NCBI GenBank assembly: GCA_023382935.1
Contig: JAHDXL010000002.1
Coordinates: forward strand, 248,001 to 312,000
From: Phycisphaerales bacterium
GTDB lineage: Bacteria > Planctomycetota > Phycisphaerae > Phycisphaerales > UBA1924
DNA: 64,000 nucleotides
Direction: 5' to 3'
The position numbers and the translations under genes are program-made. The notes beneath the pieces are model-generated. The model was not told the origin of the DNA and ran no database searches. It saw nothing but the letters and a program-made list of their open reading frames with translations. This document shows, in pieces, positions 9,988 to 35,060 of this stretch. Positions within the stretch are counted from its first letter, which is position 1. Each line of letters begins with the position of its first letter.

Positions 9988-10949
9988 TGTGCAGCCCGGC
10001 CATATGGTGGTGGTTGATATCGCTGGCGGCATGCGGTCTTGTCGGCGCGCGTCCGCAGCAGGCCGCGCCCCCCACCGCGCCGCCCGCGAACTCGAGCCTG
10101 AACGATCGACTCGAATCGCTCCATCCGTCCGATCCCCAGGCGTACTTCCTGCTCGGCGAGGAACTGGCGGCTGAGCCGCAGACGCCGGGGAATCTTGAAC
10201 TCGCCCAGAGGCTCTACGTGCTGGCGATTGTGCTGGCGTCGAAGGACGAGTCCCTGCGCACGATCGCGGCCGGGTCGGCACTGGCGCTGCTCGACATCAC
10301 GCGCTCCGAGGCCGACCGGCGGGCGCTGCGATCCATCTCCAGCGCGCTCGATGCGCGCTTCGGTACGCGCGACTGGAGCCGTTCGACGGAGGCGAGCGTC
10401 AGCGATGATGTGGCCTATGCCGCGGCGACGACGGTGGGGGCCATTCGCGCGGGCATGGGCGCATTGGTGCGCAACGAACTCAAACGCCCGGAGATTCGGT
10501 CGCTCATCGACCGCTTCTCTGCCCTTATCACCGGCTCGCCCGGGCAGAACATTCTGCCGACGCTTGAGCGTGCGGCCGAGGCCTGGCCCTGTCCCGAGTG
10601 CCGCAACGAGCGCATCGTCACCAAGCGACACACCGGGCAGGTCGAGCGCGTGCTGTGCTACACCTGCGGGGGCAATCCCGGTCCCACTCTCACGCGCGAG
10701 CAGTTCATCGGGCAGTTGCGATTCGAGGCCCAGGTTCTGAACAGCACGCCGCGATCTTGGGGAGCCCAGGTTGCTGCCGACCTCGGCGCACCGCTCCGCG
10801 AGGCCGATATCGCCGAACTGCCTATCCGCTTCGGCATTGACGTCACGCTTGCGTGGTATCGCGGCGGCGCCTGGGTGGCCGATCCGGGCCAAGGCGACTT
10901 CGGGGGCGAGGATGCTCTGTCGCCCGATCCCGCAGACCCATCCCCATAG
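9984..10949 (+). CDS. Putative lipoprotein with zinc ribbon
   Basis: 321 residues from the ATG at 9984, overlapping the previous stop (ATGA). A Trp-rich hydrophobic N-terminus ends in LAAC, a good lipobox. The n-region has no positive charge with this start; an upstream ATG at 9942 would add an Arg/Lys-rich segment, so the start is uncertain. Near residues 202 and 225 it has CPEC and CYTC, two Cys pairs spaced as a zinc ribbon. Zinc ribbons are unusual in an exported lipoprotein. It ends the ExbB/ExbD operon; about 70 bp without a clear terminator follow. Confidence 0.7.
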   Translation: MMCSPAIWWWLISLAACGLVGARPQQAAPPTAPPANSSLNDRLESLHPSDPQAYFLLGEELAAEPQTPGNLELAQRLYVLAIVLASKDESLRTIAAGSALALLDITRSEADRRALRSISSALDARFGTRDWSRSTEASVSDDVAYAAATTVGAIRAGMGALVRNELKRPEIRSLIDRFSALITGSPGQNILPTLERAAEAWPCPECRNERIVTKRHTGQVERVLCYTCGGNPGPTLTREQFIGQLRFEAQVLNSTPRSWGAQVAADLGAPLREADIAELPIRFGIDVTLAWYRGGAWVADPGQGDFGGEDALSPDPADPSP

Positions 10950-10989
10950 ACCTGATGGGTGCCAGCGTCACGCCACCGATGAAGGCTCC

Positions 10990-10995
10990 TAGACT
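10990..10995 (+). promoter_or_regulatory. Candidate -10 element TAGACT
   Basis: TAGACT sits 27 bp before the ATG of the tRNA-binding protein gene. Similar TAGA(A/C/G)T hexamers lie upstream of several other genes in this window. The matching -35 is weak. Confidence 0.3.
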
Positions 10996-11022
10996 GCCCC
11001 CGTCCGATCGAGAGGAGCAGGC

Positions 11023-11412
11023 ATGAGCCAAGCCGAGAGTGCGACCCCCGCGTCGAACACCTTCAAGCCCGAGATTTCGTATGACGACTTCGTAAAGGTC
11101 GATCTGCGGGTGGCGCGCATCGTGGCCGCCGAGCCACACCCCAACGCCGACCGCCTGTTCAAACTGCAACTGGATGATGGATCGGGACAACCCCGTCAGA
11201 TCTGCGCGGGTATTCGCGGGCACTACGAGGCCGACCAGATCGTGGGACGACAGATCATCATCGTCGCCAATCTTGCCCCGCGCAAGATTCGTGGCGAGGA
11301 ATCGCGGGGCATGCTGCTGGCCGCCAGCGACGCACCCAAGGAGAGCGGCGATCGCCGGGTGATTCTGCTCACGCCGATGAGCGAGATTGCGCCTGGTTCG
11401 ACGGTTTCCTGA
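11023..11412 (+). CDS. Stand-alone tRNA-binding domain protein (CsaA/Trbp111/MetRS-beta type)
   Basis: 129 residues. The OB-fold tRNA-binding domain is recognisable from YDDFVKVDLRVARIVAAEPH, then ADRLFKLQLDDG, VNA-type strand IIIVANLAPRKIRGEESRGM and the terminal SEIAPGSTVS. These match the domain found at the MetRS C-terminus and in free Trbp111/CsaA proteins, where it binds the outer corner of tRNA. There is no catalytic synthetase domain. A GAGAGGAG ribosome site precedes the ATG. It is separated from the ExbBD operon and faces a convergent minus-strand gene ten bases away. Confidence 0.88.
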   Translation: MSQAESATPASNTFKPEISYDDFVKVDLRVARIVAAEPHPNADRLFKLQLDDGSGQPRQICAGIRGHYEADQIVGRQIIIVANLAPRKIRGEESRGMLLAASDAPKESGDRRVILLTPMSEIAPGSTVS

Positions 11413-11422
11413 TCGATCAGAC

Positions 11423-12373
11423 TCACCAGGGCTTGTCGCCGCTGCGATCGCCCCTCGGACGATCGCGCTCGGCATCACCGTCCTCCGTGCGAGGGCCTCG
11501 GCCCCATCGCCCGCTCAACCGCTCGACCATGCGTTCGGCCATGCGCGACACCCATTGCGAGCGATCGCTTTCGTCCGCGTTCAGTTCCTGCTCGCGAGCC
11601 GCCAACTCGTTTCGCAGGCGCTCGATCTCGTGCCGCGTGATGCGTTGGCGCAGTTCAAAGTGACGCTCGGCCAGTTCGGTGAAGGCAGCCACCGCCTGCT
11701 CGCGCGTCATCTGGCCGGTGCGCAGCGCGATGCGCACCTGCGCCGCGGTCTCGATCCAGTCGGCCCCGAGACGGAACTGCTCCATCTTCAGGCGTGCCAA
11801 CTCCGGGTCTTCACGCCTCACCTGCATGATCTCGACGATCTGCGGCGTCACACGCCGGAGAATCTCCTGCCCCATGCCCTCACGCTCGGCATCGGCCCGA
11901 CGCAGACGCTCGTTGAGCCAGGGAAGTTCGGCTTCGATGAACGCCGCCACCTCCTCTGGCGCGGGCACCGGCGCGGTCTCAACGCGGCCCATGCCGGGGG
12001 GGCCTCCCGGTCCGAGCCCCTGCCCGCCCGGAATGAACTCTCCTCCAGAACCCCCCGGGCCTCCGGGCCCGAAACGCCTCTCGCCGGGCTCACGTTCGCC
12101 CAAGCGATCACGCAGCGGCCTTTCGGGCACGACATCCACCAGTTCGGCGGGGTCGATCTCTTCCCCCGCTTCGACCCGGTTCAGCAACTTCTCCAGGCGA
12201 TCCAGCGACTCGCGCGTGCGATCGATCCGCATCCGCAGGCGGTCGCGCAGCGTTTCGGGCTGGTCGGCCTGCTGCTGCGGGCCCGGCCCGCGCTGGTTCT
12301 GAGCCATCGCCCACGACGCCGGCGTCATCACGCACGCGAAGGCAATCACACGGGTCAGATGCTTGCCGCGCAT
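11423..12373 (-). CDS. Exported helical protein in a sigma/anti-sigma operon
   Basis: 316 residues with a signal peptide (cleavage probably after SWAMA). The mature protein begins Gln/Pro-rich, has a helical segment, a Gly/Pro-rich low-complexity stretch (residues ~100-130), then a long charged coiled region (RLRRADAEREGMGQEILRRV, LAERHFELRQRITRHEIERL) and a basic tail. The size, export and helical content recall Spy/CpxP-type periplasmic stress proteins, but no defining motif is visible, so that is only a suggestion. Its start shares one base with the anti-sigma stop (TGATG). Confidence 0.7.
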   Translation of the reverse strand: MRGKHLTRVIAFACVMTPASWAMAQNQRGPGPQQQADQPETLRDRLRMRIDRTRESLDRLEKLLNRVEAGEEIDPAELVDVVPERPLRDRLGEREPGERRFGPGGPGGSGGEFIPGGQGLGPGGPPGMGRVETAPVPAPEEVAAFIEAELPWLNERLRRADAEREGMGQEILRRVTPQIVEIMQVRREDPELARLKMEQFRLGADWIETAAQVRIALRTGQMTREQAVAAFTELAERHFELRQRITRHEIERLRNELAAREQELNADESDRSQWVSRMAERMVERLSGRWGRGPRTEDGDAERDRPRGDRSGDKPW

Positions 12374-12855
12374 CAGATTGACTCCTCGGTCTCAAGCAGA
12401 GCCTCCTCGGCCTGATCGAACAGCGACTCGTCGAGTCCGCCGATCGAGGCCGCTCGCTCATTCAGGGAGTTCAGGTTCGGCAGATCCTGCTGCAGCCACG
12501 CGACGGTGGCAATGAGTTCGTCGACCTCTTCCGCCGGCGTCAGCGTGTCGCCCCGCGCGATCGGCCCGGGGACCGGACCAATCGACGGCTTGGAAGACCA
12601 CAGCATCAGGGCAATCGAGGCGACGATCAGCATTGAAGCCGCCGAGGCCAGCACCACGCGGTCACGCCACCAGGACCGTTCGCGGGCATGAGCGAACGAG
12701 AGAGGCTGTGGCATGAGCACCTCGCGCTGCACTGCATCCAGGATACGAGCCTCGAAACCGGCGTCGGGCTGGGCGCGATGAGCACGCCCCAGCGCGTCCA
12801 GCGCCTGCTCGACCAACTCGATGCCGGGGTCGTTCTGGAAGGATGTGTCGCTCAT
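12373..12855 (-). CDS. Putative membrane-bound anti-sigma factor
   Basis: 160 residues: a cytoplasmic N-terminal part of ~65 residues, one membrane helix (VVLASAASMLIVASIALMLW, ~68-87) and an acidic periplasmic tail. There is no zinc-binding HxxxCxxC motif. The anti-sigma role is inferred from its place: it starts inside the stop of an ECF sigma gene (ATGA overlap) and has the expected single-pass topology. The periplasmic tail could be the signal-sensing part working with the exported protein encoded next. Confidence 0.7.
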   Translation of the reverse strand: MSDTSFQNDPGIELVEQALDALGRAHRAQPDAGFEARILDAVQREVLMPQPLSFAHARERSWWRDRVVLASAASMLIVASIALMLWSSKPSIGPVPGPIARGDTLTPAEEVDELIATVAWLQQDLPNLNSLNERAASIGGLDESLFDQAEEALLETEESI

Positions 12856-13490
12856 CGCGAAGACTCCATTTCGTTTTCGTCGGCCGGCGCCTCCATCAAA
12901 TCCCTCAGTTTCCGCAGGGCTCGGTGATGTCGCGCCAGCAGCGTACCCATTGGTTCACCGGTCAGTTCCGCAATCTCCCGAAAACTCAATCCCCCGTGAT
13001 GCCGCAACTCGATGATCTCCCGGTCGGCGTCGGACAGCGTCGCCATCGCCGCTCGCAATGCCTGCACGTCTTCGTCGCTGACGCCGGGCCGGTCGATCGG
13101 GCAGGTCAGATCCTGATCGTGCCCGTTTGATTCGACCATCGAGCGCCGACGCCGACGGATCTCGTCCCGAACCCGGTTCATCGCCACCCGAAAGAGCCAA
13201 GCCTCGAATCGCCCGCTCTCCCGGTACTCTCCCCCGGTCACTTTGCGCGCAACCGTGACGAATACCGACTGAGTCACTTCTTCGGCCGCCTCCTGAGAGT
13301 GGAGTCGGCTGCGTGCCAGCGCAAAGACCCGCCTGCCATAGATGCTGACCAGTTCGGACCATGCGCCGCCCTCACCCGTGGCTGCCCGTTCAAGGAGCGC
13401 GGTCAGCCCTTCCGGCGGGAGTGTGTCCTGACCCCGATCCTGGACCAATTCAGCCCCCTTGTTCAGTGGGCACAACGCCCGGATGGGCAT
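12852..13490 (-). CDS. ECF RNA polymerase sigma factor
   Basis: 212 residues. Sigma region 2 is visible in WSELVSIYGRRVFALARSRL and AAEEVTQSVFVTVARKV, with the region 2.4-like FEAWLFRVAMNRVRDEIRRR. Region 4 is LSDADREIIELRHHGGLSFR followed by EIAELTGEPMGTLLARHHRA, the -35-binding helix-turn-helix. There is no region 1 or 3, as usual for ECF factors. It overlaps the anti-sigma gene, so the pair should be coexpressed and the sigma held at the membrane. The ATG at 13490 is accepted; the first ~25 residues look nonessential and a later start is possible. Confidence 0.92.
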   Translation of the reverse strand: MPIRALCPLNKGAELVQDRGQDTLPPEGLTALLERAATGEGGAWSELVSIYGRRVFALARSRLHSQEAAEEVTQSVFVTVARKVTGGEYRESGRFEAWLFRVAMNRVRDEIRRRRRSMVESNGHDQDLTCPIDRPGVSDEDVQALRAAMATLSDADREIIELRHHGGLSFREIAELTGEPMGTLLARHHRALRKLRDLMEAPADENEMESSR

Positions 13491-27630: not shown

Positions 27631-28773
27631 TCACGCCTCCCGCCGGCGCCGATACACCAATTCGACATCATCCCCCAGTCGCCTGGCTCGCAGCAGGTCG
27701 AAGCGTCTTCCCTCGGTGAGCGAACTGGCCACGCGCCCGCTGGCCACAGTCTTTGCCATCTCATCGCCCAGCAGAAGTGGTGCAACGTACACGACCGCTT
27801 CGTCGATCAGGTCGAGTTCGAACAAGGCCCCCAGCAGCCCCGGGCCCGACTCGACCAGCACCGAGGATACGCCGCACTTTTCCATCAGCGTCGCGAACAG
27901 CAGAGGCAGGTGCAGTCGGCCCAAGTCCTCGGGTACGCCGAGCAGGGTCACGCCTGCCGCCTCGAGGGCCTCGCGCTGCCGGGCCACAATGTCCGCAACG
28001 ATGAGGTCCTTGGAGCAGGCAATCAGCGTCGGTTCGGTGCCGGCCGACATGACCAGTTTGCTGTCAGCCTGGATGTTCAGTTCGCGGTCGATGATGACGC
28101 GCTTGGCCTTGCGCCGCACATGGACGCCGCGCGCCGTGAGCATCGGATCGTCGGCCGCGACGGTGCCGAATCCGGCCAGCACCGCGTCCACCCTGGCTCG
28201 CAACTGGTGCACGCGGCGGCGTGAACGCTCGTTGCTGATCCACTTGCTCTCGCCGGTGCGTGTCGCCGCACGCCCATCGATGGTCTGCGCCCACTTGGCG
28301 ATGATCCACGGCAGCCCGGTCCTGATCCGTTTGATGAAGGGCTCGCTCAGGCGAATCGCGGCCGTGCTGGCCTCGCACTTTCGCACGCTGATGCCCGCGG
28401 CTCGGAGCACGCCGCTCCCGCCGCCGGAAGTCTCGTGCGGGTCATCGACGGCGTATACCACCTGCGCGATGCCGGCCTCGATCAATGCATCGGTGCAGGG
28501 CGGCTGCTTGCCGAAGTGACGGCACGGCTCGAGTGTGACGTAGATCGTCGCCCCGCGCGCGTCGAGCCCGCGCTCCCGGCAGTTCTTCAAGGCATCGCGT
28601 TCGGCGTGCAGGTCGCCGAAGCGACGGTGATGCCCAAGCCCAATCACACGCCCATCGCGAACAATGACTGCGCCAACCATCGGGTTGGGCTCCACGTACC
28701 CCATTCCGCGCAGCGCGACGCGGGCTGCCAGGTCAAGCATCGCCTTGTCGAGTTCCTGCGGCACGCCAGACAT
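27631..28773 (-). CDS. ribD: Bifunctional riboflavin deaminase/reductase RibD
   Basis: 380 residues from the ATG at 28773. The N-terminal deaminase has the zinc ligands HAE (H56) and C84/C93 in EPCRHFGKQPPC. The C-terminal reductase begins near KWAQTIDGRAATRTGESKWI, with VLAGFGTVAADDPMLTAR and VLVESGPGLLGALFE. It performs the second and third steps of riboflavin synthesis. Its start overlaps the last base of the rnhB stop (TAATG), so the two are coupled. No FMN riboswitch is seen; the rnhB gene precedes it. Confidence 0.95.
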   Translation of the reverse strand: MSGVPQELDKAMLDLAARVALRGMGYVEPNPMVGAVIVRDGRVIGLGHHRRFGDLHAERDALKNCRERGLDARGATIYVTLEPCRHFGKQPPCTDALIEAGIAQVVYAVDDPHETSGGGSGVLRAAGISVRKCEASTAAIRLSEPFIKRIRTGLPWIIAKWAQTIDGRAATRTGESKWISNERSRRRVHQLRARVDAVLAGFGTVAADDPMLTARGVHVRRKAKRVIIDRELNIQADSKLVMSAGTEPTLIACSKDLIVADIVARQREALEAAGVTLLGVPEDLGRLHLPLLFATLMEKCGVSSVLVESGPGLLGALFELDLIDEAVVYVAPLLLGDEMAKTVASGRVASSLTEGRRFDLLRARRLGDDVELVYRRRREA

Positions 28774-29729
28774 TACGCAAGGCGAACCAGCGCCGCGCGC
28801 GTCGGCGCGTCGAGAACCGGATGGGCGTCGCGCAGCCAACGACGGGCATCGGTCGTGTATCCCGCGGTCGGCTTCAACTCCGGCAGGCGGCCGCACCAGT
28901 ATCGATTGAATCGGGCCATTGCCAGTTCGCGCACCAGTTTGGCCGTCATCGACGCCAGGGCCACGGGCAGGTGCGCGTCCTCGGCCTCGGGAATCAGCAG
29001 AACCCTTGCTCGTTCCCCGAGTTCATAGCGGCTGGCCCGTTCGGTCTCCTCCAGCGGGCGCGGACTGTGCGAGCAGACGCCCGACAGCGCGCCGGCGTAA
29101 TGCACCCGCCCGCCGTGCCGGTCGGCCACGATGCGGACCTCGGCCTCCGGCCACTCGCGCAAGACGCGGGCAACCAAGATGCGCAGGGCATGCGTCGTCG
29201 TCGCGCCCTTTGAGCCGTGCTCACGCACGAGCGCGTTGAAGGACGACTCGCACAGGGTGACGCCCCACAACCCGACGAGACGGACACCGGCCCTCTCGGC
29301 TGCGCCGGTCAGGATGTTCGCGTCAATGCGAATCGCGTCACGCGTCGAGGCCCGGGGCAGCGGGGCGGGATCGCCCGCATACCAGGCCTGCGATCCGAGA
29401 TTGACGCCCAGTGAGCCGAACAGCGCGTCGTCACTCTCGATGGGTGTCAGGAAGCCCTCGCAGAAACCGAGTACCCCGCGTTCGAGGTGGAGCAGCGGGT
29501 CTCTCTGCTGCCCGTTCGGAAGTTTGAGTTTCTTCGAGTCAGCGACGGCGATGCGTTTTCGGACGTCGCGCGGCGAGCGGCACACCGCACGCTCCAGCAA
29601 CTTCCACAAGTCAGGGGCCGCCTGTCCCTGCTCCCACGAACTGACCTCGAACACCGAGGCGCATACGCACAGCGGCCCGAGCATCGGCCCGTATCCGGCT
29701 TCGTCGATGCCGCAGTAAATCAGAGACAT
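28773..29729 (-). CDS. rnhB: Ribonuclease HII-like protein, divergent
   Basis: 318 residues from the ATG at 29729; an ATG at 29738 is also possible. RNase HII active-site elements are present: CGIDEAGYGPMLGPL for DEAGRGP, VADSKKLK, and LIPEAEDAHLPVALASMTAK followed by LVREL for the AASI-AK-RD region. It is longer than the usual ~200-220 residues because of large central insertions. The expected role is to nick RNA-DNA hybrids at ribonucleotides; the insertions make full activity uncertain. It overlaps ribD downstream. Confidence 0.75.
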   Translation of the reverse strand: MSLIYCGIDEAGYGPMLGPLCVCASVFEVSSWEQGQAAPDLWKLLERAVCRSPRDVRKRIAVADSKKLKLPNGQQRDPLLHLERGVLGFCEGFLTPIESDDALFGSLGVNLGSQAWYAGDPAPLPRASTRDAIRIDANILTGAAERAGVRLVGLWGVTLCESSFNALVREHGSKGATTTHALRILVARVLREWPEAEVRIVADRHGGRVHYAGALSGVCSHSPRPLEETERASRYELGERARVLLIPEAEDAHLPVALASMTAKLVRELAMARFNRYWCGRLPELKPTAGYTTDARRWLRDAHPVLDAPTRAALVRLA

Positions 29730-29983
29730 GGCGGGCATGGTATCGCCGGACGCGGTGCAGGGAGCGGATCAGGCGCCAAGTCCGCGAAGCGAGCCGGGTG
29801 CGATCCCCGCTTTGGTGGACTCGCCGGAACGGACCCTACGGGCGTCATAACCGGACCGGCGTCTTGTCCAATATCTCGGCTTGGAGATACACCGGTCAAA
29901 TCCCCGCCCTGCTCGGCCGATCGGAAGTCAGGCCCGAGTCGGGTCAAGCGGAACAAACCCCCATATGCAAGGAGAGGCCGGCC

Positions 29984-32599
29984 ATGCCAGGTCAGCGCAT
30001 CGCAATCAAGTCGGGTCCGAGCAGTGTGGCTTCCCGGATCGTCATCACCTCGCTGGTCAGTGCGCTGGCCGGGGCGCTCGGTGCGTGCTCGACGACGACG
30101 CACGCCGGGGCGCAAAAGGAGTTCAACAAGACCGCCGAACTGGCTTCTGTGCAGATTGCGCCGGACGCGACCGCCGGGCGCTATGACTCGAGTTTCTATT
30201 TCGGACAGGCGCGACAGGCCAACGCGCCCCGCGAGTGGGTGAATGAGGCGGTGGCACAGAGCGCGGTGCTGAAGTTGCAGCGGGCCCAGGCCGAGGGAGC
30301 CCGCGTCGAGGCGGCTGCCAACCGCACGACCTCGCTGGCCCAGGCCGACGAGATGCTGGCCCAGGCCGCGGCGCTGCACCAGATCGCCGGCTTCGAGGCC
30401 CAGCGTCAACGGACGGCCCAGGACATCCGCTTCAACCAGTTGGAAGAAGAGATCCGTGCCCATCGCACGCTGTCAGAGATCTCGCAGCGCAGCGGTCAGA
30501 TCGAGATCGGAAGCGTGATGTCTGACCTCAAGGGTCAGGTGTCGATGATGACCGCCGAGGCCGACGCCGCTTGGGCGGCCGCCCAGGTCGAGTGCGAGCG
30601 TCTGCGCACTGAGCACGAGCGCGTCTCCACTCAGGGCCAGGCGATCGTCCGCCAGATGAACGAGCAGGTGACGCTGGTTGGGCAACGTGCCGACCAGCAG
30701 ATCACTTCGCTGGAAGGCCAGTCGCAGGCGACGCTCCGCCGCGCCAACGCCGAGGCCCAGTTGCTGGCCCAGCAGGCCCGCTCGCACCTGTCGGAAGGCA
30801 AGGACCGTCAGAGCGAACTTTCGCAGCAGGCTGAGTACGTGCTCAGTCAGGCGACGGTGGAGTCCAACCGGCTGAACGCCGAGGCTACCCGAATCGAGTC
30901 TTCGAACATTGAGGGTACGTATCGCTCGTCCATCGCGCAGGCTGAGCAGAACTTCGCGTGGGCCAAGACCCGCGGCAACGAACTGCGTGAAACGGCCATG
31001 CAGAAGTTGACCGCGTACACCTCGCAGTTTACCAGCGCACGCCAGCAGGCCGACTACCAGTTCAACAGCGACTCGGCGGCCCACCAGCGAGCGCTCGACG
31101 CGCTGGCGGCTGAGGACCGGCAGGTGAAGGCCACCTTCTCAATCGCGCTCTCGCGGGCCCAGGAGTTCGAGTTCGACGCTCGCGAGACCTTCGTGCAAAC
31201 GGAGATTTCCAGGGACCGGACCGGGCGTCCGGCCAGCGAGGTGCGGTTCAACGCCGAGCAGAAGGCCGATGCGCTGGCGGCAGCGTTCCGTGCTGTCACG
31301 AGCAACGACCCGGCGGCCATCGACATCCTGAGCGAGACCGAGCACGGAGATGCGTTCGTCGCCGCGGTGGCCCAGTCTGACCGCATGCGTACGACGGCCC
31401 GGGCCACGTTTGATCGCGATCTGGCCGATGTGGCCTCGCGCCGGACGCAGGCCGAGATCGCCTTTGAAGATGCGCACACGGTGTACCGCAATACCAAGAG
31501 CCAGATCGCCTCGGCCGAGACCAACGCGACCACCGAGGTGGAGCAGATGTTCGCCCAGGCCGACGCATTGCTCAAGCAGTCCGAGCGTGACTACGAGCAG
31601 GCCTGCATCAACGCCGCGTCGACGCGGGATCAGGCGATCGCGCAGGCCCAGCAGTTGCGCACGGCCGCGGTGGCGACGGTGGCCAGTGCGCAAGCCAAGG
31701 CGGCCCAATTGAGGTCAGACAGCGAGGCGGCCCTCGCCACGGCGCAGGCCCTGGCGACCGAGTTCGAGCAGAAGAAGCAGGCCGTTCTGGCGGCCGCACA
31801 GGCGCAGAGCAACCAGTTCCTGGCGCAGGCAGACCTGGTTCGCTCGGAGAAGACACGGTGCATCAGCGACCTGAATGACCGGATCGCCGCTTCGCAGGGG
31901 CTGCTCGACGCTGAACTGGCCCGGCTCGAGACCCTGGCCCGCCAGACCTATGAGGTGGCGCGACTGGAGCACGAGGAGGCCATGCTGATCGCCAGCACGT
32001 TCGAGCGCATCGGCACGGCGCGCGTTGAAGCGCTGGCCGCCCAGAACGTGCTCTCGGCCCAGAACCGCTCCAATGCGCTGGCCCGCAGCCAGACCGATCT
32101 CAATACCGAGCGTCAGTTGGTCCACGCCCGAATCGACTCGGCTCTGGCCCAGGCCGACACGACGCTGGATGCCTTTGAAACCGAGGACTCGCTGCGCCGG
32201 GCCCGCGCCCACGCGCTCGAGCAGATCATGCTGGCGTACGTGGAGCACCAGCACGCCACCGCCGAGGCCGAGGAATCGACCATCGTCGCTCGCTTCAACT
32301 CGCGTCTGGCGCAGTTGCAGGCCGATCGCGACCGCGCCTATGCCCAGGCATATGTAGATCGTCAGCGCACGCAGACCGACCTTGTGACGGCCGGCGCTCC
32401 GGTGCCGCCCGCTCTGAGCGATGCGACGTTGGCGCGACTGGAAACGGCGGCCATGAACATCCGTCAGGCCGCCGCCGAGGCCAGGAGTATTCTCGAAGCG
32501 TCGCAGGCGCAATCGATGGCGCAGTCGGGCGGCGACGCGCTGCAGATGACGCAGCCCGGCACGAGCGAGGTCGCCAACGTGCCCGCCGACGTCGATTGA
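29984..32599 (+). CDS. Very long Ala/Gln-rich coiled-coil lipoprotein
   Basis: 871 residues from the ATG at 29984, with AAGGAG upstream. A signal of ~35 residues ends in LGAC, a lipobox, so the protein is likely a lipid-anchored envelope protein. Nearly all of the rest is one unbroken helical coiled coil rich in Ala, Gln, Glu and Arg, including repeated phrases such as AEAQLLAQQARSHLSEGKD, LAQADEMLAQAAALHQ and ARFNSRLAQLQADRDRAYAQ. There are almost no prolines, so a long fibre is expected. No enzyme motif is seen. A long rod bridging inner and outer layers is plausible. The in-frame start at 29798 lacks features. Confidence 0.8.
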   Translation: MPGQRIAIKSGPSSVASRIVITSLVSALAGALGACSTTTHAGAQKEFNKTAELASVQIAPDATAGRYDSSFYFGQARQANAPREWVNEAVAQSAVLKLQRAQAEGARVEAAANRTTSLAQADEMLAQAAALHQIAGFEAQRQRTAQDIRFNQLEEEIRAHRTLSEISQRSGQIEIGSVMSDLKGQVSMMTAEADAAWAAAQVECERLRTEHERVSTQGQAIVRQMNEQVTLVGQRADQQITSLEGQSQATLRRANAEAQLLAQQARSHLSEGKDRQSELSQQAEYVLSQATVESNRLNAEATRIESSNIEGTYRSSIAQAEQNFAWAKTRGNELRETAMQKLTAYTSQFTSARQQADYQFNSDSAAHQRALDALAAEDRQVKATFSIALSRAQEFEFDARETFVQTEISRDRTGRPASEVRFNAEQKADALAAAFRAVTSNDPAAIDILSETEHGDAFVAAVAQSDRMRTTARATFDRDLADVASRRTQAEIAFEDAHTVYRNTKSQIASAETNATTEVEQMFAQADALLKQSERDYEQACINAASTRDQAIAQAQQLRTAAVATVASAQAKAAQLRSDSEAALATAQALATEFEQKKQAVLAAAQAQSNQFLAQADLVRSEKTRCISDLNDRIAASQGLLDAELARLETLARQTYEVARLEHEEAMLIASTFERIGTARVEALAAQNVLSAQNRSNALARSQTDLNTERQLVHARIDSALAQADTTLDAFETEDSLRRARAHALEQIMLAYVEHQHATAEAEESTIVARFNSRLAQLQADRDRAYAQAYVDRQRTQTDLVTAGAPVPPALSDATLARLETAAMNIRQAAAEARSILEASQAQSMAQSGGDALQMTQPGTSEVANVPADVD

Positions 32600-32626
32600 C
32601 GCCGCTGCCGATCCTGGGGGTGATGG

Positions 32627-32660
32627 CACGCCGGGCCTCGTGTCCGGCGTGTCTTCTTTT
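32627..32660 (+). terminator. Rho-independent terminator
   Basis: CACGCCGG (32627-32634) pairs exactly with CCGGCGTG (32644-32651), loop of nine, followed by TCTTCTTTT. It stands 27 bp after the coiled-coil lipoprotein gene and before a convergent gene. Confidence 0.7.
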
Positions 32661-32732: not shown

Positions 32733-34196
32733 TCAGCCGGCCCTTCGCTCTTCGCGATCGTCAATGCCCAGTTGCTTCATCTTCTTGTAGAGCGTGGTGC
32801 GGTTGATGGCCAGATCGTCGGCTGTCTTCTGGCGGTTCCACTGGTTGGCTTCCAGCGCCTTGAGAATGATGCGCTTCTCCGGCTCGAGCAGCGCATCGAC
32901 GAGCGGCGTCGGAATCCACGGCGATTCGGCTGAATCGAGTGAGGCCCGGTCGCGTCCGGTGAATGCACGCAGCAGCCCGTGGTCAACCCCCTCGATGACG
33001 TTGCCCGGCAAATCGCTCAGTTCGACGCGAGATGAGCGCGTCAGCACGGCCGCCCGCTCGACAATGTTCTGCAACTCGCGCACGTTGCCGGGGAACGAGT
33101 AGCGCCGCAGCGCGTCCATGGCCTCGGGCGCAAAGCCGACCAAAGTCTTGTGCAACTGTTCGGCGTGGACGTGCAGGAAGTGCTCGGCCAGGATGGGGAT
33201 GTCGCTGACGCGCTCGCGCAGCGGAGGCAGTTCGATCTTGACCACGTTGATGCGGTAGTACAGATCCTGGCGAAACTGCCCGGCGGCCACCAGTTGCTCC
33301 AGCGGCTGGTTGCTTGCCAGTATCACACGAACGTCCACCTCGACCGTCTTGCTGGCGCCCACCGGCTCGAAGCGACGTTCCTGCAGCACGCGCAGGAGTT
33401 TCAACTGCATTGCCGGACTGGCGCTGTTGATCTCGTCAAGAAAGATCGTGCCTCCGTCGGCAGCCAGGAATCGTCCCGCCTTGTCCGCGTGCGCGCCGGT
33501 AAAGGCGCCCTTGACGTGTCCGAACAGTTCACTCTCCAGCAGCGTCTCGGGAATGGACCCGCAACTGATCTCGACAAACGGCTTCTCGCGGCGAGGACTC
33601 TGCTGATGAATCGCCCCCGCGATGAGGCTCTTGCCTGTTCCGCTCTCCCCGGTCATCAGGACCGTCGTCTTGCTGGGTGCCACGGCCTCGACAAGTTCAT
33701 AGATTCGCTGCATCCGGTGGTCGTGCCCGATGATGCCGCCCAGTCCGAAGCGCCCGTCCAGACGGCGTTTGAGCGTGCGATTCTCCTCAACCAGCGCCTG
33801 TTGCCGGATCGCCCGCTCGAGCGAAAGGCGCAGTTCCTCGTCGATCACGGGCTTGGTCAGGTAATCGACCGCTCCCAGGCGCAACGCCTCCACCGCAGAC
33901 TCGATGGTGCCGTAGCCGGTGAGCATGACCACGGCCGTCGCGGGAAACCGCCGCCCGATTTCCCGCAGTAGATCCATCCCGCTTGTTCCGGGCATCGAGA
34001 CGTCGGAAATGACCACGCGAAATGGCTGCGGTGGACGTGCCGCATCGGCTGGCTCGCGCTCTGCCTGCTCCAGGGCCGCCAGCGCTTCCTCGGCGTTGTA
34101 GGCGCTGGATGCTGAGTAGCCCTCGAGCGATAGGTGCTCTCGCAGTGAGTCGGCCACGATCGGGTCGTCGTCAACAATGAGCACGCGAACGCTCAT
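32733..34196 (-). CDS. NtrC-family sigma-54-dependent response regulator
   Basis: 487 residues from the ATG at 34196, overlapping the kinase stop (ATGA). The receiver domain has the phosphoacceptor D65 in VVISDVSMPG, with a ~15-residue insertion ahead of it. The AAA+ domain has Walker A GESGTGKS, the GAFTGA loop that contacts sigma-54, and DEINSASPAMQLKLLRVLQE. The C-terminal Fis-like helix-turn-helix includes QKTADDLAINRTTLYKKMKQ. It should turn on sigma-54 promoters when phosphorylated by the kinase encoded just upstream. The longer frame to 34340 has no receiver fold and is not used. Confidence 0.95.
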   Translation of the reverse strand: MSVRVLIVDDDPIVADSLREHLSLEGYSASSAYNAEEALAALEQAEREPADAARPPQPFRVVISDVSMPGTSGMDLLREIGRRFPATAVVMLTGYGTIESAVEALRLGAVDYLTKPVIDEELRLSLERAIRQQALVEENRTLKRRLDGRFGLGGIIGHDHRMQRIYELVEAVAPSKTTVLMTGESGTGKSLIAGAIHQQSPRREKPFVEISCGSIPETLLESELFGHVKGAFTGAHADKAGRFLAADGGTIFLDEINSASPAMQLKLLRVLQERRFEPVGASKTVEVDVRVILASNQPLEQLVAAGQFRQDLYYRINVVKIELPPLRERVSDIPILAEHFLHVHAEQLHKTLVGFAPEAMDALRRYSFPGNVRELQNIVERAAVLTRSSRVELSDLPGNVIEGVDHGLLRAFTGRDRASLDSAESPWIPTPLVDALLEPEKRIILKALEANQWNRQKTADDLAINRTTLYKKMKQLGIDDREERRAG

Positions 34197-35029
34197 GCCG
34201 AGCCTCCGACCCTGGTCTCTCCGCGCTTCGGTTCCGGAAAGGCGATGCGCAGCACCGCGCCCGGGCGCTGCATCCCGTGGCGCTCGGGCCGCGGCGTCAG
34301 CGCGATTGTGCCGCCCAGTTCGCCGACGATGCTGGCGCACACCGCCAGCCCGATGCCGCGGGGCCCGGGCTTGGTGGTGTAACTGGGCTCGAAAAGGCGC
34401 ACCGGCGGAACCTGCGAGGGCAGCCCCACACCGTCGTCGCTGATCTCGATGGCAACGCGACGGCGTCCGTCGCTGGCCTTGTCGCTCACACGCGCGGTGA
34501 TGCGGATCTCGCCCCCGCTCACCTTGTCCTGCGCCGCTTCGATCGAATCAAGCGCGTTGGAAAGCCCGTTGAGAACCACGCTGTAGATCGGTCCGCTCGG
34601 CATCGAACCCGCGTCGGGGTCCACGTCAATGACCACGCGAATTCCCATCTCTTCCGCACGCGGACGCACCACCCTGGCCGCGTGCTCGATCACGTCTCGC
34701 ACGCTGGTGGCGTCAGCACCTCCCAGCATCGGCGAGCCCAGAGAGAGGTGGCGGCTTCGCAACGCCGCGTTGATCAGGTCGGCCATGCGCATCAGCGCGC
34801 CACGCACAGTTTCCAACTGCTCACGAGCGCGATCGATCGGGTCCGGCTCACTGTGCGACAACGTGCGGTCGGCGAGCGCCAGCCACCGAATCGAGCCGTC
34901 CAGCAGGTTGCTCAGTTCATGGGCCAGTCGCGTCAGTTCGTCGGCCGCCTCGGGCGAGCGCCGCGCCGTCGGGTTGGGTCGCAGCGAATCACCGTTTTCG
35001 GCGGGGTCCCTGTCGTGTTCGGGCATCAT
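34193..35029 (-). CDS. Soluble sensor histidine kinase
   Basis: 278 residues from the ATG at 35029. The phosphoacceptor is H37 in LAHELSN. ATP-binding motifs follow: N box SNALDSIEAA, G1 DDGVGLP and G2 GPRGIGLAVC. There is no membrane helix and no separate sensor domain, so the signal must be intracellular or come from a partner protein. The adjacent NtrC-type regulator is its likely partner. It starts a few bases after a candidate sigma-54 promoter. Confidence 0.92.
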   Translation of the reverse strand: MMPEHDRDPAENGDSLRPNPTARRSPEAADELTRLAHELSNLLDGSIRWLALADRTLSHSEPDPIDRAREQLETVRGALMRMADLINAALRSRHLSLGSPMLGGADATSVRDVIEHAARVVRPRAEEMGIRVVIDVDPDAGSMPSGPIYSVVLNGLSNALDSIEAAQDKVSGGEIRITARVSDKASDGRRRVAIEISDDGVGLPSQVPPVRLFEPSYTTKPGPRGIGLAVCASIVGELGGTIALTPRPERHGMQRPGAVLRIAFPEPKRGETRVGGSA

Positions 35030-35046
35030 CGTGCCCTGACATCGAC

Positions 35047-35060
35047 GCAAACGCCCTGCC
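35047..35060 (-). promoter_or_regulatory. Candidate sigma-54 promoter (-24/-12)
   Basis: Read on the minus strand the sequence is GGCAGGGCGTTTGC: GG, ten bases, GC. It fits the TGGCACG-N4-TTGC pattern in spacing and in the GGCA and TTGC blocks. The predicted start of transcription is ~10 bases farther on, only 6-8 bases before the kinase ATG at 35029. The regulator it would need is encoded by the second gene. Confidence 0.6.

Follow-up and report, generated by a model that had tools for sequence, protein, structure and literature searches.

The question raised by this locus is what shape a lipoprotein takes when nearly all of its long chain is predicted to be helix, and what such a protein could do in the envelope of a Phycisphaerales bacterium. 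In the window, that is, the whole stretch of 64,000 nucleotides analysed, the coding sequence occupies positions 29984-32599 of the forward strand (871 codons plus TGA). It is preceded by a Shine-Dalgarno-like AGGAG at 29970-29974 (+), nine bases upstream of the ATG, and followed by a hairpin resembling an intrinsic terminator at 32625-32653 (+), with a stem of 12 pairs, nine of them G-C, and a T-rich tail. A signal peptide and lipobox (LGA-C) span 29984-30088 (+) and end at Cys35, after which the chain contains 20.3% Ala and 10.3% Gln. The exact extent of the frame, its Ala/Gln-rich composition, the lipobox and the gene's own terminator had been pointed out in an earlier sequence-only reading of the locus, and our analysis bears each of them out. 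A signal peptide followed by a lipobox Cys, the feature of bacterial lipoproteins of the lipobox class, is present in the family: all 65 aligned relatives have the Cys at column 35, and the strict pattern [LVIM][ASTVIG][GAS]C is found in 50 of them and a relaxed form in 60. The frame is a real gene, as evidenced by its full-length relatives across the class and by the excess of third-position differences from an 85%-identical relative in L065 (98, 44 and 300 differences at codon positions 1, 2 and 3), a distribution that also indicates selection at the protein level.

The gene is present in single copy in its own genome, where no paralogue of the protein was found. The 16S rRNA was not found in that assembly (G000), which is thus incomplete in that respect. 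It contains 10 matches to SBP_bac_10 (PF07596), a family associated with Planctomycetota, against none in 14 control genomes, which agrees with an origin in that phylum. The survey of orthologues advised by the sequence-only reading returned full-length relatives across the class. In genome samples that overlap, and with partial or weak rows counted (e.g. G237, G228 and G532), the genomes matched by a profile from 16 family members (A1) number 46 out of 301 in the order, 42 out of 163 in the family, 27 out of 298 in the class and 13 out of 392 in the phylum; a profile from 15 members (A2) matched 23 of 161 genomes in the order of G370 and 18 of the 118 sampled in the order of G488. Eight of the 13 matches in the phylum sample lie inside the class. 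The other five (L111-L115), which are the only sequences beyond the class reached by the family profile, are coiled-coil proteins of another class that match A1 partially, over about 130 profile positions (E 1.5e-7 to 2.6e-6). Their proteins, read in four of the five genomes as frames of 718-726 residues, look flotillin-like, but a Pfam search at E 0.001 assigned the two that were tested to no family. Two relatives stand apart by their gene structure. In L086, on a single contig, the gene is in two pieces on the same strand (G302:C1:1037962-1038891 and 1048384-1050129), about 9.5 kb apart and with the C-terminal piece first, which may reflect a rearrangement, an assembly fault or a true split; L118, from a distant genome, contains the full-length gene twice, close together and on one strand direction (G362:C34:5913-8567 and 10486-13029).

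Database searches gave the family no name. At E 1, Pfam assigned the window protein to no family, and it found none common to the 16 members; NCBIfam contained no relative, and the A2 profile found none among PDB sequences at E 10; with A1, the lone PDB sequence match was YfgL (E 0.34), restricted to profile positions 20-58. The single match in PHROGs, of unknown function (E 0.0093), was taken as a chance coiled-coil match, and a phage origin of the gene was discarded. Nor did the literature searched yield, within our library and the terms used, any title describing these proteins; within those limits, the family appears to be undescribed, with no assigned name or function.

A functional clue from the neighbouring genes was likewise dropped, since no conserved neighbourhood emerged from 40 loci of the window's order and 12 distant ones. 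No conserved operon was found among the 40, where a divergent RNase HII cluster occurs in 14 and a RibD cluster in 15, with other neighbours in the remaining genomes, and the 12 distant loci show no recurrent neighbour cluster beyond one pair. In the window, the product of the divergent neighbour at 28773-29738 (-) looks like a divergent RNase HII, with a PF01351 match of 5.1e-11 as a whole and no single stretch that passes alone. On the other side, genes for a sigma-54 response regulator and a histidine kinase at 32733-35050 (-) converge on the terminator; clusters of this kind adjoin the gene in four of the 40 loci, the window included.

To describe the protein, we relied on an alignment of 65 relatives, obtained from 138 ORF hits of at least 600 aa covering both profile ends by deduplication (66 sequences) and a 97% identity cut; L139, L148, L017 and L086, also of at least 600 aa, were excluded for missing an end, and shorter fragments were left aside. 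Median pairwise identity is 27% and the minimum 16%. After Cys35 comes a tether of variable length (residues 36-82; 30089-30229, +), recognised by gapped alignment columns and low AlphaFold2 confidence, which ends in a Pro that 92% of sequences share, directly before arm 1. Arm 1 (residues 83-410; 30230-31213, +) and arm 2 (residues 456-805; 31349-32398, +) are straight helices built of 18-residue repeats, as judged from alignment and periodicity and, for arm 1, also from the AlphaFold2 helices. Between them lies a tip (residues 411-455; 31214-31348, +) with Pro416, Pro443 and two short helices, placed by the covariation centre and AlphaFold2, and the alignment sets off a C-terminal tail at residues 806-871 (32399-32596, +). 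A V-P type end is found in 33 of the 65 relatives, and D or E within the last four residues in 59; a V-P-x-D C-terminus serving as a universal docking motif is, at 33 of 65, weaker than it first seemed. The arms are strikingly uniform in length, with not one insertion or deletion in any of the 65 sequences over residues 83-398 (316 columns) or 464-785 (322 columns). The stretch between 398 and 464 holds 0 to 143 residues (median 108) and is the sole inter-arm region with large variation in length.

A helix of some 800 residues devoid of proline, as formerly claimed for this chain, does not exist: beyond the signal peptide, Pro occurs at residues 60, 82, 416, 443, 806, 808, 809, 858 and 867, and the longest Pro-free runs, both predicted to be mostly helical, measure 362 (444-805) and 333 residues (83-415). 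In the arms of the family Pro takes only 26 of 41,470 positions, and three relatives reach 636-698 residues without it. Residues 399-463 are wholly or largely missing from three relatives, in which 0, 0 and 17 residues are left.

Whether the arms fold back on one another was read from covariation, taken as APC-corrected mutual information over the 65 sequences (Neff 39) and summed along antidiagonals i+j. In a first pass the top antidiagonal was i+j=863 (z 6.8). With linker columns taken out and nine adjacent sums pooled, it was 861 (z 9.39), the 966 other centres having a standard deviation of 1.13 and a maximum of 3.11. The same centre is given by the inner half of the arms (z 5.43) and by the outer half (z 7.35), by 62 sequences after removal of the three tip-less members (z 8.76) and by the 47 sequences outside the distant clade (z 8.55), and 20 of 20 random half alignments peak at 860-862. 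The distant clade of 18 sequences alone shows the hairpin weakly, with 858 at the top of its scan (z 3.0). Centres offset from 861 by multiples of 9 or 18 residues do not exceed 2.93, so 861 is not an artefact of repeat phase. Mean-field DCA restricted to the face-I sector (see below) also returned 861 (z 9.22); since permuting the arm-2 rows gave face-I maxima of up to 5.18, these z values should not be read as plain normal deviates. Independently, the junction of the tip deletions (398+464=862) falls on the same centre, its placement depending on where the aligner sets the gap.

Structure prediction agrees at the centre of the molecule. AlphaFold2 on the full chain with two sequences had low confidence (pLDDT 55.5, pTM 0.32), the best regions flanking the tip. 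Residues 290-572 alone gave a pLDDT of 91.5 and a pTM of 0.62, with helices at 291-410 (120 residues) and 456-571 (116 residues) about the tip, which contains helices 417-438 and 443-450 and no globular domain in the window protein. The two top VIA-align 2 rows are themselves hairpins, the Smc fragment 5xg2 (Z 12.3, rmsd 8.3, 230 aligned) and the chemoreceptor 3g67 (Z 11.9, rmsd 7.1, 213 aligned); as both fall below the Z of about 13 that the tool holds distinctive for long helices, they support a common arrangement and not kinship, nor are families outside the list thereby excluded. Altogether, the centre at 861, the near-equal arms without insertions or deletions and the resemblance of the AlphaFold2 centre to hairpin coiled coils make it well supported that the window protein is an antiparallel helical hairpin of about 50 nm with its tip near residue 431. 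What persists of the formerly proposed lipid-anchored helical rod of about 120 nm is a long, helical, lipid-anchored element; its continuity is contradicted by these same three lines of evidence, and the fold is an antiparallel hairpin instead of a continuous coiled coil, which is the outcome that the sequence-only reading had itself named as its refutation. In two of the tip-less relatives, where the linker is absent and the junction contains neither Pro nor Gly, a hairpin would need a very tight turn, and for these two a continuous helix is conceivable, if improbable.

Analysis of the repeat period, also advised beforehand, found 18 residues and not 7. Across the family, Ala has a spectral peak at a period of about 2.25, with a power of 55.5 in arm 2 and 24.3 in arm 1, charge follows the same period, and large hydrophobic residues peak at 3.60 (powers 24.2 and 17.2). 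For the window protein taken by itself, the Ala power of arm 2 is 22.1 at 2.25 and 0.7 at 3.5, and the Ala periodicity of each arm exceeds that of all 2,000 shuffles. Held-out Ala positions are predicted by an 18-residue profile (r 0.66/0.73) and not by a 7-residue one (-0.02/-0.15). The repeat keeps one unbroken phase over 464-785 in arm 2; the arm-2 profile reads arm 1 in one phase from residue 65 to about 301 and one residue later from there to about 421, which indicates a single one-residue skip near residues 305-315 (30896-30928, +; best phase offset changing from 9 to 10). Periodicity and held-out tests thus rule out a heptad or an 11-residue repeat for the arms, which are not a canonical heptad coiled coil and follow an exact repeat of 18 residues in five turns. 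The period of 2.25 is the signature of two opposite faces on such an 18/5 helix, with 3.6 residues per turn. PMC4786415 gives 3.5 residues per turn for heptad coiled coils, about 3.63 for a straight helix and 3.67 for hendecads, and treats 18/5 as a delocalised stutter.

The two faces lie about 180 degrees apart on each helix. Face I (0-60 degrees on the helical wheel) combines L, V, I, F and Y with Ala or other small residues, whereas face II (200-240 degrees) is made of Ala (0.44/0.72/0.45) with Gly and Ser, has the highest information of the wheel at 220 degrees (3.2 bits) and, running along the outside of the arms, is the most conserved surface. Along the 861 band, pairs at equal wheel angle covary in the sectors from 320 to 160 degrees and hardly in those from 160 to 320; face I is therefore the interface between the two arms of one molecule, and the Ala face points outward. 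When the other side was scanned by mutual information, the strongest antidiagonal was 896-897 (z 5.6), two repeats away from 861, and covarying pairs of the 897 band fall mainly in the sectors from 160 to 320 degrees. Mean-field DCA on the face-II side also gave 896 (z 5.62), and -0.5 at the same place when the sector was centred at 40 degrees; in 25 trials that permuted the arm-2 rows, the highest value was 2.63. The register came out at 895-901 in 22 of 25 half samples (858, 883 and 889 in the rest) and was positive in all six segments into which arm 1 was split (0.8 to 2.6). Among 12 mean-field DCA scans over arm pairs, faces and directions, the 861 and 896 registers were the only ones above 3.7, so that none of these scans indicated parallel or same-arm contacts at that level; arm1-arm1 mutual-information peaks on face II (4.5 at sum 533, 4.0 at separation 190) were set aside as noise, mean-field DCA giving 2.8 at 532 and 3.0 at 190. 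As two arms cannot touch through opposite faces at once, we read the 896 register as intermolecular, and it is moderately supported that it marks a contact between neighbouring hairpins leading to an open staggered array.

The 896 signal could instead arise from a sliding register of the same hairpin or from phylogenetic noise, which would leave a hairpin with no evidence for polymerisation. We hold this to be unlikely, though a serious competitor. In its favour, the z is moderate (5.6) and the signal is seen alone only in the larger clade, the 18 sequences of the distant clade giving 1.57 at 897. The 65 sequences from which the second contact was derived are, moreover, all related. On the other hand, sliding would have to account for the use of the opposite helix face and of sectors complementary to those of 861, which one pair of arms cannot make simultaneously, and noise for a signal that neither the sector control nor the row permutation reproduces.

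An intermolecular reading of 896 leads to a model that, as a whole, we consider to be just on the probable side: a lipid-anchored hairpin that would polymerise through its Ala faces into a sheet of straight helices on an envelope membrane. The protein would be a secreted lipoprotein held in that membrane by Cys35, its chain folding as a straight antiparallel hairpin of about 50 nm in which residues 83-398 pair with 464-785 and face I joins both arms within one molecule. Face II would pack arm 1 against arm 2 of the next hairpin, the two being displaced by about 36 residues (5.3 nm). As a non-zero displacement accumulates with each further neighbour, a two-hairpin bundle or dimer could not close, which points to an open lateral polymer, and the staggered hairpins could form a sheet one helix thick with helices running alternately up and down. 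Helix spacing amounts to about 1.8 nm per hairpin, a value assumed in our tilt estimates; if all anchors sit in one membrane, the hairpins would stand at roughly 15-20 degrees to it or lie flat on it, and the sheet might be a structural coat or scaffold, on the membrane or tilted low over it. Of these elements, the lipobox, the repeat, the hairpin and its two faces are demonstrated by computation, and the staggered contact between molecules has indirect support; the polymer with its sheet geometry, its structural role and the membrane concerned are what we infer from this model. For a two-dimensional coat on the cell, of the S-layer or another kind, the evidence is the covariation signal of that lateral contact, which is indirect. 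The crateriform structures, described on all Planctomycetes in PMC6554331, were considered as a site of action and dropped, as the patchy distribution of the gene (46 of 301 genomes in the order) speaks against it.

The hairpin might also work, singly or as a dimer, as a stalk holding out its variable tip at a distance from the membrane, with the Ala face packing within the dimer or on another protein, in the manner of the enterococcal PrgA, a function reportedly treated by Schmitt et al. (2020). PrgA has the shape of a hairpin and, with 6z9l, is the top Foldseek row of the full-chain, low-confidence model at an E of 0.013 (not below 0.001), a possible likeness in a long antiparallel helical hairpin on the cell envelope; a tip region ranging from 0 to 143 residues would also be expected of a presented module. 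Against these points, the tip of the window protein is two short helices with no globular domain, the tip is missing altogether in two relatives and is thus dispensable, conservation is highest on the outward Ala face that lines the arms, and a two-fold dimer would not be expected to show the staggered second register; a PrgA-like stalk thus seems doubtful to us. Less likely again, and distinctly improbable, is a closure of the hairpins on themselves in a wide barrel or ring of helices, as the wall of a conduit or cage with tilted helices. Such a wall also needs two faces about 180 degrees apart, and a tilt common to all helices could presumably take up a uniform stagger, much as a beta-barrel accommodates shear, but no channel or membrane-insertion element was identified and the tilt implied would be steep, about 70 degrees at the assumed hairpin width. 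A single rod of about 120 nm, whether one continuous helix or a parallel coiled coil, is hardly credible: despite the nearly all-helical prediction outside the ends and the 636-698 Pro-free residues of three relatives, it is opposed by Pro416 and Pro443 in the window protein, by the antidiagonal centre at 861, by the absence of a heptad signal and by the break that AlphaFold2 places between 411 and 455.

Hairpin coiled coils as such are known, and comparison with them shows what is particular to the staggered hairpin favoured here. No sequence relation to PrgA was found, and the window member has an N-terminal lipid anchor, straight 18-residue repeats and no clear domain at its tip. The arms of SMC, Rad50 and MukB are antiparallel hairpins too, the Smc arm fragment 5xg2 being the best VIA-align 2 row; the present protein is in contrast an exported lipoprotein, and Pfam found neither ATPase heads nor hinge in it or in the 16 members. 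The antiparallel hairpins of chemoreceptors (3g67, 1qu7) are cytoplasmic and carry a signalling tip, whereas here neither Pfam nor NCBIfam matched an MCP signalling domain, and Pfam matched no SPFH domain (SPFH/flotillin) in the protein or the members. By the features tested, all read from sequence, the protein would then belong to none of the PrgA, SMC, chemoreceptor and SPFH families. The honeybee silk heterotetramer likewise uses two faces of Ala-rich antiparallel helices, but it is, according to PMC12284834, a 243 A rod of four chains with 24 heptads, as opposed to an 18-residue repeat in a lipid-anchored hairpin of about 50 nm. An exact 18-residue, two-faced, lipid-anchored hairpin of such length was matched by nothing in our comparisons.

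The envelopes of the host bacteria are poorly understood at the protein level. With less than even confidence, we propose that a class-wide lipoprotein may build there a one-helix-thick, staggered alpha-helical coat, advancing in 5.3-nm steps on an 18-residue repeat, a construction unlike that of folded-domain S-layers and of heptad fibres. From the methodological side, weak covariation summed over antidiagonals can settle between hairpin and rod with only 65 sequences. If the model is true, an uncharacterised family matched in 27 of 298 sampled genomes of the class would embody a natural rule for the design of straight helices with two faces, underlain by an exact 18-residue repeat and zero insertions or deletions over 316 and 322 columns, and it would provide predictions for envelope structure in these bacteria, namely a hairpin of about 50 nm and inter-chain contacts at i+j of about 896.
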